The notes beneath the pieces are model-generated. The model had not been told where the DNA came from, did no database searches, and saw only the letters and a list, made by a program, of their open reading frames with translations. From Alphaproteobacteria bacterium (GTDB lineage: Bacteria > Pseudomonadota > Alphaproteobacteria > UBA9219 > RGZA01), in contig JANRLI010000016.1 in NCBI GenBank assembly GCA_033762625.1, positions 1 through 64,000 of the forward strand: a stretch of 64,000 nucleotides of DNA, read 5' to 3'. Of the stretch, positions 19,541-61,035 are shown piece after piece. The stretch's first letter is position 1; each line of letters opens with the position of its first letter. Both the position numbers and the translations under genes were made by a program.

Positions 19541-19701
19541 TTTATCCTCCTATATCATCAAGGTTAACTTGATCAGGAGGGTTAGGGCGTGAGTTCGTTT
19601 CAATAAATCAAGAACCAACACCGGAAAACTTACTCCCGATGCGGTCCGACATCACAATAAGGGTATTCACTACTTATTGTCAGAGGGGCCCGGCCCGCTA
19701 A
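19541..19701 (-). promoter_or_regulatory. structured leader of the TerC operon
   Basis: About 160 nt of predicted 5' untranslated RNA. It contains a perfect 8-bp stem (ACAATAAG / CTTATTGT, 11-nt loop, 19654-19680), a small GATG/CATC stem right after it (19638-19653), and a GC-rich GGGCCGGGCCCC segment. TerC/Alx genes in other bacteria are often controlled by a manganese (yybP-ykoY) riboswitch; I could not find that motif's conserved GGGGAGUAG core here. A different leader-based control is possible. Confidence 0.4.
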
Positions 19702-47442: not shown

Positions 47443-48155
47443 TACTCTTCTTCGGGTGCCAGAAGCTTATAGATAGTCGTGTGTTTGATCTCGCTATCTT
47501 CAACCTCTAACGGCGTTGCCACATCATATTCCGCCAGCTTTTCCAATCCCTCTTTGGGCAGATAATTACGCCCGGGATCAGCCAACAATACCGTTTTACC
47601 CTGCTTTATTTGCGCGCGCAGCCATTCAATCGCATAACCGGCCATCGGCCATTCATAACAAAAATCACCCGCCAAAATCACATCAATATCGGGTAAATCG
47701 CGGTTGATTTTATTATCGTGCAAGACATCCACGCTCACATTATTCGCTGCCGCGTTCATCCCCACTGCCACGATGGATAAAGGGTCCACATCATTCGCAA
47801 CCACCGATGCCGCACCCGCCATTTTCGCGGCAATCGCGCACAGGCCCGACCCTGATGCAAAATCAAACACCCGCTTGCCGCGAACGATTTCTGCATTATC
47901 CAGAACATACCGCGCAAGCGCCTGCCCGCCGGGCCATGCAAACGACCAGAAGGGCGGCGGGATATTTTTGGCTTCAAAGCGTTCTTCGGTTACGCGCCAC
48001 AGCGCATTGAACACGTCACTTAAATGCAACTTAATCTCGGGAAGCAGCGGCGGATTTTTCAACTGCGTATTGGTGATGATGAACTCGCTATTCTGGGTGA
48101 TATAGCTTGGCCAATCCTCAACCTTTTTCACGCGTTTGGTTTTTATTGCTGTCAT
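47442..48155 (-). CDS. class I SAM methyltransferase, ETFB-lysine-methyltransferase-like
   Basis: A 237-residue methyltransferase. PPFWSFAWPGGQALARYVLDN, then VFDFASGSGLCAIAAKMAGA (SAM motif I) and VVANDVDPLS resemble the METTL20/ETFB methyltransferase and L11-methyltransferase-like group. In that group the bacterial members methylate lysines of the electron-transfer flavoprotein beta subunit. The GDFCYEWPM segment replaces the usual DxxY. Its ATG overlaps the ubiA stop by 4 bp. Confidence 0.82.
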   Translation of the reverse strand: MTAIKTKRVKKVEDWPSYITQNSEFIITNTQLKNPPLLPEIKLHLSDVFNALWRVTEERFEAKNIPPPFWSFAWPGGQALARYVLDNAEIVRGKRVFDFASGSGLCAIAAKMAGAASVVANDVDPLSIVAVGMNAAANNVSVDVLHDNKINRDLPDIDVILAGDFCYEWPMAGYAIEWLRAQIKQGKTVLLADPGRNYLPKEGLEKLAEYDVATPLEVEDSEIKHTTIYKLLAPEEE

Positions 48156-49036
48156 ACGATTACCCGTCCTAAAACCATCGCTGCTAATACGATCCAGCCA
48201 AAGGTAGTGTTGGCCTTGAATGCGGCAAGGCTACTCGCACGATCATCCATGCGCCAGTTTTTTAATATCCACGCCATATAAACGAACGCAATCGCCATCC
48301 CGCCATAAAACAAGGGGCTAAGATGCGCCAGCGCGCCAGCCACCAGCAATAAGGCAAAACTAATTCCCGCCCAGATAACAATGGTTTTCTGTGCGCTATT
48401 CCCCAGCACCCGCGCGGTCGATTTAATGCCCGCAACCTCATCATCCGCCTTATCTTGAAATGCGTAGATGGTATCGTAAGCAAGCGTCCAGAAAAAACAT
48501 GCGGCATATAATACAAATGCCGCAAAGGGCAAGGCGTTTTGCACCGCAGTGAATCCCATCATCGCGCCCCAATTGAAAATCACGCCGAGAAAAACCTGTG
48601 GCCACCATGTGATGCGTTTCATCAACGGGTAAAGGGCAATCAGTGGCAGTGATGCCACTGCCAGCACAAACGTAAACCCGTTCATACACAGCACCACCAG
48701 CAACCCGATGATGCAGCAGCCGATTGCAAACGCAATTCCCTGCCATGGGCTAATCTCGCCGCTGGCAATCGGGCGTTGTCTGGTGCGCTCTACCTGCGCA
48801 TCCAATTTACGGTCGATGACATCATTCACCGCGCAGCCTGCCGCGCGCATCACCACCGCGCCAACAAAGAACAGAATAAAAATCCAAACGCTCGGGATCT
48901 CCCCTTCCAGTGTTGCAAGCGTTTGCGCCCACCATGCGGGGAATAGCAACAGCATAAAGCCCGCTGGCTTATCAAGGCGCGCCAAACGCGCATAGGGCTG
49001 CGCCGCAGCAGGAAGGTGATTTATCAAAAAAGACAT
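48152..49036 (-). CDS. ubiA: 4-hydroxybenzoate polyprenyltransferase
   Basis: A 294-residue intramembrane prenyltransferase that joins the isoprenoid tail to 4-hydroxybenzoate in ubiquinone synthesis. Both aspartate-rich motifs are present: NDVIDRKLDAQVERTRQRP and YDTIYAFQDKADDEVAGIKS, with the usual YPLMKRITWWPQ between them. About eight membrane helices. It is followed by the methyltransferase gene in an overlapping pair. The structured repeat lies just upstream. Confidence 0.95.
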   Translation of the reverse strand: MSFLINHLPAAAQPYARLARLDKPAGFMLLLFPAWWAQTLATLEGEIPSVWIFILFFVGAVVMRAAGCAVNDVIDRKLDAQVERTRQRPIASGEISPWQGIAFAIGCCIIGLLVVLCMNGFTFVLAVASLPLIALYPLMKRITWWPQVFLGVIFNWGAMMGFTAVQNALPFAAFVLYAACFFWTLAYDTIYAFQDKADDEVAGIKSTARVLGNSAQKTIVIWAGISFALLLVAGALAHLSPLFYGGMAIAFVYMAWILKNWRMDDRASSLAAFKANTTFGWIVLAAMVLGRVIV

Positions 49037-49104: not shown

Positions 49105-49234
49105 TTGTCAATTGCGTCAGAATGAGGCGAAAATGCGGGGTTCCGAGAACCGGAGCGCAGCGTACATTTAAGTACGTGAGCACCGGAAGCGCAGGAATAC
49201 CTTCATTTGCAGCCCATTATCACGCAATTAACAA
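49105..49234. repeat. structured dispersed repeat, copy 1
   Basis: A 130-bp element with long inverted ends (TTGTCAATTGCGT / ACGCAATTAACAA, 12 of 13 paired), an imperfect inner stem and two hairpins: GGTTC-CGA-GAACC and CCGGAGC...CGTAC-ATTTAA-GTACG...CCGG. It shares ~115 bp with the copy at 59782-59902; differences in the stems are paired. It lies in the divergent gap between ubiA and lemA. Confidence 0.85.
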
Positions 49235-49261: not shown

Positions 49262-49816
49262 ATGTTAGTTGTAGCCGTTGTTGCAGGGTTCATTATTCTA
49301 TTCATCATCGGGGTTTATAACCGCCTTGTCGCGCTGCGCCAGGAATGCAAAAACGCCTTTGCCGATGTCGATGTATATTTAAAGCAGCGCTTTGATTTAA
49401 TCCCGAATCTTGTCGAAACGGTGAAGGGTTATGCGGCGCATGAAAAATCGGTCTTTGAAGAAATCGCCAAAGCGCGCGCGGGTATTTCCAATGCGTCCAA
49501 CATCTCCGACCGCGTTCAGGCTGAAAACCAGCTCAGCATGGGTATGCGCGGACTATTTGCGGTTATGGAAAATTATCCAACCTTAAAGGCTGACGGAAAT
49601 TTCCAGCGGCTGATGGCGGAACTCTCCGACATTGAAAATAAAGTATCTGCTGCGCGTCGTTTCTTTAACAATGCGGTTGGCGAATACAATGCTTCCATCC
49701 AGCAATTCCCTGCGGTGCTGGTTGCACCAACGCTTGGCTTCAAACAGGAAACCATGTTTGACCTCGGCGATGCGGTGCGCGAACAACTTTCTACTGCACC
49801 GTCAGTCAAATTCTAA
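49262..49816 (+). CDS. lemA: LemA family protein
   Basis: A 184-residue LemA protein: N-terminal membrane anchor (VVAVVAGFIILFIIGVYNRLVAL), then the all-helical domain with NAFADVDVYLKQRFDLIPNLVETVKGY and FNNAVGEYNASIQQFPAVL. The role of LemA is not well established, but it commonly sits beside membrane M48 or HtpX peptidases, as here. The ATG has an AAGGA site; the peptidase gene starts 18 bp after. Confidence 0.95.
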   Translation: MLVVAVVAGFIILFIIGVYNRLVALRQECKNAFADVDVYLKQRFDLIPNLVETVKGYAAHEKSVFEEIAKARAGISNASNISDRVQAENQLSMGMRGLFAVMENYPTLKADGNFQRLMAELSDIENKVSAARRFFNNAVGEYNASIQQFPAVLVAPTLGFKQETMFDLGDAVREQLSTAPSVKF

Positions 49817-59781: not shown

Positions 59782-59902
59782 AAGTTACGTCAGAATGAGA
59801 CGAAAATGCGTGGTTCCGAGAACCGGAGCGCAGCGTACATTTAAGTACGTGAGCACCGGAAGCGGAGGAACAGCGCATTTGCAGTCCATTATCACGTAAC
59901 TT
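59782..59902. repeat. structured dispersed repeat, copy 2
   Basis: A 121-bp element, partner of 49105-49234. The ends AAGTTACGT / ACGTAACTT pair perfectly, and the same two inner hairpins are kept. It sits in a convergent gap and ends 2 bp before the hisZ stop codon, so it is the 3' untranslated part of hisZ mRNA on the minus strand. Confidence 0.85.
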
Positions 59903-59904
59903 TT

Positions 59905-61035
59905 TTAGATCATCTTGGCTTTATTGTTTTCGTAAATTACATGGCACGCCTGACGTTTTGCTTCTGCGGTCAAATCAGTGTCCTTGGAAAGATTGCGCAG
60001 CACGACATACCCTTCCTTCACCAAGGCCGCGGTTTGCGCGGGCGCGGTATCAAACGGCACCAGAATACGCGCGCGGGGTTTGGCGCGCGGCAACACCGGC
60101 ATCAAACTTTCGGCATAGAATGTGAAACCGGTTGCAGGTTCATTGGTGGCGGTGCGATATCTGCCGCCGCGTCCCAATTCGGCGCGAATGGCCTTGGAAA
60201 AAAGCGCAAAGCTCAATCCGGTTTGGTATTCAAAGCCGCGATATTCCACAAGATCGACCGTCATGGTGCTGCGCAGATCATGCGGCAATAAATCATATAC
60301 ACGTTGCAAGCGTGTGCGGTCCAATGCCGCTTTTTCGGGTAAATCCATCGCGGCCAATGCGGCAAGCGCGTCTCCGGCATCACCGCTTGCACGCAATAAT
60401 CCCACTGCAAGCGCGCATGCTTTTTCCATTCCTGCGGTTTTACCCAATCCCTGCACCAAGGCTTCATTCTTGCGGTCGAGTGCGGCGTGTAATTTTGCCC
60501 GTGCATCGCCTTCTACATGAAATGCTTCGCAAATACTTGGAATAAGCGTGGGCAAGGTAATGTCGAGCGCAACACCGGTCACGCCAATACGCGCCAAACT
60601 TTGCATCGCCAATAAAATAACTTCGGCATCCGCTTCGGCATCCAGACTACCGATGATTTCTGCGCCCACTTGCGTCACTTGGCGCGCGTGGTTTTGTTCA
60701 TGGCCTGTGATGCGTAAAATGGGCCCCGCATAGGATAAGCGCAAAGGGCGCGGCGCGGTGGAAAGACGCGTTGCGGCAATGCGGCCGATTTGCAAGGTGT
60801 GATCGCTGCGGCATGCCAGCATGCGCTGCGAATTGGGGTCCATCACGCGGAAGGTGGTGCGGTTCAAACTGGCACCGGGGCCCGATAATAATGTTTCTTC
60901 AAATTCCATAATGGGCGGCGCAACGCGTCCATAACCGTTTTCGGCAAACACCGCTAACAGCGTTTGCGTGGCGGCGGCTTCGCTTTCCGCATCGGGGCTT
61001 AATACGTCATAAAATCCGGCAGGAAGAAGGTTCAT
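59905..61035 (-). CDS. hisZ: ATP phosphoribosyltransferase regulatory subunit
   Basis: A 376-residue HisZ, a catalytically inactive paralog of histidyl-tRNA synthetase needed by short-form HisG in the first step of histidine synthesis. PAGFYDVLSPDAESEAAATQ opens it; FRVMDPNSQRMLACRSDHTLQIGRIAATRL and HEQNHARQVTQVGAEIIGS are the class II aaRS-like motifs. The end is the expected short anticodon-domain-free tail. The repeat starts right after its stop codon. Confidence 0.9.
   Translation of the reverse strand: MNLLPAGFYDVLSPDAESEAAATQTLLAVFAENGYGRVAPPIMEFEETLLSGPGASLNRTTFRVMDPNSQRMLACRSDHTLQIGRIAATRLSTAPRPLRLSYAGPILRITGHEQNHARQVTQVGAEIIGSLDAEADAEVILLAMQSLARIGVTGVALDITLPTLIPSICEAFHVEGDARAKLHAALDRKNEALVQGLGKTAGMEKACALAVGLLRASGDAGDALAALAAMDLPEKAALDRTRLQRVYDLLPHDLRSTMTVDLVEYRGFEYQTGLSFALFSKAIRAELGRGGRYRTATNEPATGFTFYAESLMPVLPRAKPRARILVPFDTAPAQTAALVKEGYVVLRNLSKDTDLTAEAKRQACHVIYENNKAKMI

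Follow-up and report, generated by a model that had tools for sequence, protein, structure and literature searches.

Does a palindromic repeat found twice in a 64,000-nt stretch of an alphaproteobacterial contig (hereafter the window) represent a small RNA, an RNA control element or a mobile element, and is its pairing maintained by selection? The initial annotation had described two copies whose stems differ by changes on both sides. Both copies are present and are 91% identical over ~115 bp, and the two-sided stem changes between them are real. A 21-mer from the core matched the window twice, at these two copies, where 0 matches are expected by chance. Folding z-scores were -5.4 for copy 1 and -8.1 for copy 2, with 0/200 shuffles folding as well. 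The long pairing ends that had been reported were recovered, but the two separate internal hairpins were not; each element instead forms a single long interrupted hairpin made up of outer arms, inner arms, a core with two internal loops and an apical hairpin. Elements of this kind are 119-145 bp in length and contain no ORF, in agreement with the earlier claim. The coordinates of all features are given in Table 1.

Screening of the window and its relatives against Rfam, at both gathering and E-value level, gave no match at the element. Elsewhere in the window, a terC RNA (RF03067) was observed at 19637-19701 on the minus strand (60 bits). A literature search with strings of the core sequence returned unrelated papers only.

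Table 1. Features of the two window copies and of the genes beside them. The reading strand is plus for both copies.
Feature	Position	Strand	Remarks
Copy 1, full palindromic element	49110..49229	+	Outer pairing ends AATTGCGT...ACGCAATT
Divergent genes flanking copy 1: UbiA family / LemA family	48152-49036 / 49262-49816	- / +	
Copy 1, conserved 59-nt core	49140..49198	+	Model R1, 89.6 bits
Copy 1, C-GA-G strand of outer GA x GNA loop	49144..49147	+	G6, A7 and G8 invariant in alignment A2
Copy 1, C-GNA-G strand of inner loop, N = C	49156..49160	+	N is C, G or A across copies; flanking bases invariant
Copy 1, apical hairpin GCGTAC-ATTTAA-GTACGT with conserved G.U closing pair	49160..49177	+	G.U in 23/23 sequences
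Copy 1, C-GNA-G strand of outer loop, N = C	49190..49194	+	Kept even where the preceding segment becomes a ~40-nt hairpin
Copy 2, full palindromic element	59782..59902	+	AAGTTACGT...ACGTAACTT; between convergent genes
Copy 2, conserved 59-nt core	59813..59871	+	89 bits
TAA stop of histidyl-tRNA-synthetase-like gene (59905-61035, -)	59905..59907	-	3 nt from the reading-strand 3' end of copy 2

Architecture of the conserved core

A covariance model (R1) was built from the 59-nt core. On the reading strand the core carries two internal loops, in each of which C-GA-G faces C(U)-GNA-G; the two are in mutually inverted order, with N free and the remaining bases nearly invariant (alignment A2). The apical stem is closed by a G.U pair in every sequence aligned. 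In four loci of the same genus (L013, L086, L087 and L088) a ~40-nt hairpin of the CCCTGCTTTGCAGG...TGTCCTGCGAAGCAGGACA type replaces GGAAGCG on the 3' strand; its position within the core is identical in all four and the elements differ in arm type, and the GNA triplet is retained in these copies. One of them, L087, is the counterpart of copy 2 in the same-genus genome G002, and has an additional ~43-nt hairpin in its core. In Ochrobactrum-like genomes (L128-L135 in G249, G078 and G181) the apical loop is occupied by another palindrome (CCCGAAAAGTTGCAGACTTTTCGG), ~46 nt long.

The DNA sequence d(GCGNAGC) forms an unusually stable mini-hairpin, and GNA loops alone therefore cannot separate RNA from DNA. 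Our preferred reading of the core is that it acts as a folded RNA or single-stranded DNA (ssDNA) read by a conserved partner, with RNA slightly favoured because of the invariant G.U pair.

Distribution and mobility of the family

Searches of the genome and its relatives for further copies uncovered a large dispersed family. The 2.23 Mb genome to which the window belongs contains 15 copies by BLAST and 17 by model R1, one of them weak, and 22 were found in G002. Three Mesorhizobium genomes contain 34-54 copies and a fourth contains 20, whilst genomes encoding a protein with 82-84% identity to Brucella BP26 contain 10-72 (with BP26 as the probe, the best relatives reached no more than 84% identity). 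Across the Alphaproteobacteria the distribution is patchy, with a core match at 1e-5 in 32 of 385 genomes. The core is carried on plasmids of Sphingobium, Shinella, Agrobacterium and others, where some copies are situated within ABC-transporter operons. In a survey of the phylum, all strong matches (above about 45 bits) came from Alphaproteobacteria, with one borderline case at 45.2 bits. The weaker matches outside this class represent a short-core form (L262-L269) in which the core measures 46-49 nt. It has the two loops seen in the longer core and likewise lies in long palindromes, whose ends are, for example, AGGGCGTGTTGACATGTG or GGACCTGTTCACAATTG. Copies were also observed in two IMG/VR contigs (L022 and L023). 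A phage collection yielded only a 23-bp match to RNA ligase genes of the T4-like kind, which was put down to chance.

A mobile MITE-like element had been one of the possibilities raised for the repeat, and it is borne out by empty sites, terminal inverted repeats and direct repeats in relatives; the family is real and its mobility well supported. Copy 1 is missing from the orthologous site in G002, where the flanking genes share 78-90% identity and 40 bp replace ~190 bp, and copy 2 is common to both genomes. A reciprocal pattern was seen at two gene ends lying side by side, where G000 and G002 each carry a copy missing from the other; the one at L008 is absent from G002. A different small hairpin (ATCCCCGCGAAAGCGGGGAT) was observed in G000 (L008, 2042-2097) after the same gene where G002 has the element.

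The outer arms pair as terminal inverted repeats in all lineages, and exact ends could be defined in G010 and G573. The G010 copies ending GARACC...GGTYTC have TAA or TTA (TWA) at both ends in 7 of 8 cases, and those of G573 ending in GAGGCCATTTCAAAAC have exact 5-bp direct repeats in 6 of 7; a clean target duplication was not seen at the window copies themselves. L210-L223 of G573 represent a recent amplification of near-identical copies, several with internal deletions and many at contig ends. The element ends differ between lineages and are unrelated around the same core, and therefore the ends get replaced whilst the core persists. Moreover, the occurrence of at least two kinds of target duplication (TWA and 5 bp) with one core suggests that different transposases are involved. 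No PF01609 transposase was found in G000, G002 or G010, and among the PF01609 (DDE_Tnp_1) loci of seven genomes none of those in G573, G249 and G059 had ends matching the element. Y1 transposases of the RAYT type (PF01797) gave 0 matches in the window's own genome, with positive controls.

Selection, placement and orientation

The data support selection on the pairing, and on one strand. The initial annotation had attributed the paired changes to selection and not to random decay; among 23 copies, 10 of 21 pairs show two-sided changes and 95% of cells pair, with no shuffle or slid register near the real value. Where a column was predominantly Watson-Crick, the imperfect pairs counted on the reading strand were 144 G.U cells (68 columns) against 26 A.C cells (19 columns); these column counts replace a raw count of imperfect pairs, which was inflated by fixed mismatches in the loops. 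G.U exceeded A.C in all six genome groups, and by zone the ratio was 64:6 (inner), 22:8 (middle) and 58:12 (outer). Overall transitions on the reading strand were symmetric (74 vs 70), so strand-biased mutation is not the cause, and the asymmetry of G.U over A.C combined with symmetric transitions therefore points to selection on the folding of one strand, as predicted. The copies are related and not independent, so that a nominal p of 1e-7 is overstated and the agreement of six groups out of six (sign test, 1/64) is preferred as the safer measure. The argument from the two window copies is weaker than it seemed, because their outer arms are terminal inverted repeats, matched for transposition, and because quasi-palindrome repair also yields paired changes.

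Gene ends were located with a simple codon-bias gene finder. On the 3' side of the reading strand, 58 of the 68 gene ends that face the element are 30-55 nt away from the core, a distance which corresponds to the element end, compared with 21 of 46 on the opposite side. This placement may need no function, because TNA/YTAR targets overlap stop codons and duplication would leave a stop. The notion that the element supplies the gene's stop was rejected, being true solely in the sense that a stop is still present after insertion into a TA/TNA stop. Among tandem contexts, the folding strand runs antisense to the gene that it abuts in 33 cases vs 14.

Orientation follows the contig or replichore in several genomes, though not in all. 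Neighbours within 150 kb share the same orientation in G059 (Mesorhizobium, 25/25), G062 (20/23), G000 (8/8), G002 (9/10) and G078 (23/31), and the 15 copies on contig 1 of G010 form two clean orientation arcs; agreement is absent from G249 (22/48), G061 (8/16) and G042 (1/7). The reading strand is C-rich around 94% of loci in the window's own genome, which by the usual skew convention would mean that the strand which folds strongly is not the lagging-strand template. Orientation-dependent hairpin instability or a fork-linked transposase would explain such a bias. Selection against sense insertion in operons was set aside, the replichore predicting orientation in G010 better than the local genes.

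We consider it reasonably probable that these repeats are a non-autonomous MITE-like family of interrupted hairpins with a conserved asymmetric core, the fold of the core being selected and the copies moved in trans. The enzymes responsible would be DDE-type transposases, IS5-like for TWA or TA repeats and different in type for 5-bp repeats. A copy entering a stop codon at T-N-A or Y-TA-R would duplicate the site and leave the stop, and copies at such sites, being harmless, would accumulate. The reading strand, whether as RNA or ssDNA, would have to fold so that a conserved partner is presented with two GA x GNA loops, and this would hold the core constant as the ends change. Copies that keep the strand of strong folding off the lagging-strand template would tend to survive, giving rise to the orientation bias. 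Counting against this reading, the mobilising enzyme was not found among the PF01609 loci of the seven genomes, and orientation agreement is lacking in G249, G061 and G042. A transcribed RNA is awkward because the folding strand is mostly antisense to the abutting gene, and an ssDNA intermediate because of the target duplications. We would go further only tentatively, and with rather more doubt than confidence, in proposing that the core is a folded nucleic acid presenting a double GA x GNA motif to a widely conserved protein, and that it is a module which hitchhikes between MITE backbones and different transposase types across Proteobacteria, with its orientation set by replication.

The small RNA or RNA control element that had been suggested for the repeat was not demonstrated; the folding strand usually runs antisense to the gene it abuts. 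A trans-acting structured small RNA, or an RNA from mobile DNA, transcribed from the reading strand and bound by a conserved protein, with the repeats as its genes, is possible but doubtful. The near-invariant unpaired bases, the invariant G.U and the tolerance of G.U by the stems of one strand all suit such an RNA, and there is a precedent in Bradyrhizobium, where complementary small RNAs lie over a 3'-UTR repeat (PMC5082802). However, the copies have no conserved promoter or terminator, the single site at copy 1 that resembles a promoter is no better than chance, the arms vary by lineage, and in most tandem cases this RNA would be antisense to the abutting gene. We think it unlikely that the repeat is an mRNA 3'-end element, in which, as has been suggested for REP sequences, a hairpin after the stop codon protects the transcript or brings about its termination. 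Whilst copies do adjoin stop codons and occur within ABC-transporter operons on plasmids, the mRNA of the abutting gene usually has the complement, with A.C mismatches, a U tract is absent, and the TNA/YTAR target alone explains the placement at stops.

Similarly unlikely, in our judgement, is an ssDNA mobile hairpin resembling REPIN/RAYT or IS200/IS605, which would fold during replication and be moved by a single-strand transposase in a replication-linked orientation. Strand-specific folding and orientation by contig or replichore are consistent with this, but the window's own genome lacks a Y1 transposase, and direct repeats of TWA or 5 bp are indicative of staggered cuts in both strands. 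Moreover, IS608 has a replication-strand preference, of which a C-rich reading strand, if it is the leading-strand template under the usual skew convention, is the opposite. It is very improbable that folding is not selected at all and that the paired changes arise from quasi-palindrome template switching together with matched terminal repeats. Such repair is a known mutational source of paired changes, and the outer arms are indeed terminal repeats, yet no asymmetry between G.U and A.C would then be predicted, when it is seen in all three zones with symmetric transitions, and the invariant loops would be left unexplained.

Comparison with known repeat families

The family resembles MITEs such as RUP, Correia/NEMIS and QMITE2 in being short and ORF-less, with terminal repeats, direct repeats and a hairpin. 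The ends of a MITE are normally its conserved part, since they are read by the transposase. MITEs thus usually have constant ends and variable centres, whereas the present family shows the reverse, and a conserved centre with replaced ends implies that the centre has a function or a partner that reads it. QMITE2 shares a location mainly in 3' UTRs, but its GTAG REP and 7-11 bp repeats are its own (PMC5896051). REP and REPIN sequences with their RAYTs are likewise small, extragenic, palindromic mobile DNA; the present element is far larger, has target duplications in relatives and occurs in a genome without a Y1 transposase. The CIR repeats of Caulobacter and other alphaproteobacteria are also dispersed intergenic inverted repeats of >100 bp but are defined by GANTC sites (PMC2229807), none of which is present in either window copy. 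Br-REP1 and Br-REP2 of Bradyrhizobium are palindromic 3'-UTR repeats of an alphaproteobacterium, whose published consensus sequences differ (PMC5082802).

Taken as a whole, the analysis brings scattered alphaproteobacterial repeats together under one motif, with a core covariance model that Rfam does not have, and offers three testable regularities, namely selection on the folding of one strand, placement at stop codons and replication-linked orientation. The strongest candidates for identity with the family are Bru-RS1 and Bru-RS2 of Brucella (Halling and Bricker 1994), related intergenic palindromes of 103-106 bp in ~35-40 copies, which are hot spots for IS711, an element inserting at YTAR with duplication of TA (PMC2267715, PMC10800456, PMC3163539). 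On their published descriptions, they agree with the present family in length and copy number, in genus and in being linked through YTAR with IS711, and differ in that the present family spans a much wider range. Judged from these descriptions, the Bru-RS elements are probably members of the family. If they do match in sequence, the elements are already known in Brucella; what the literature consulted would leave as new is the family across the whole class, the swapping of its ends and the findings on strand.
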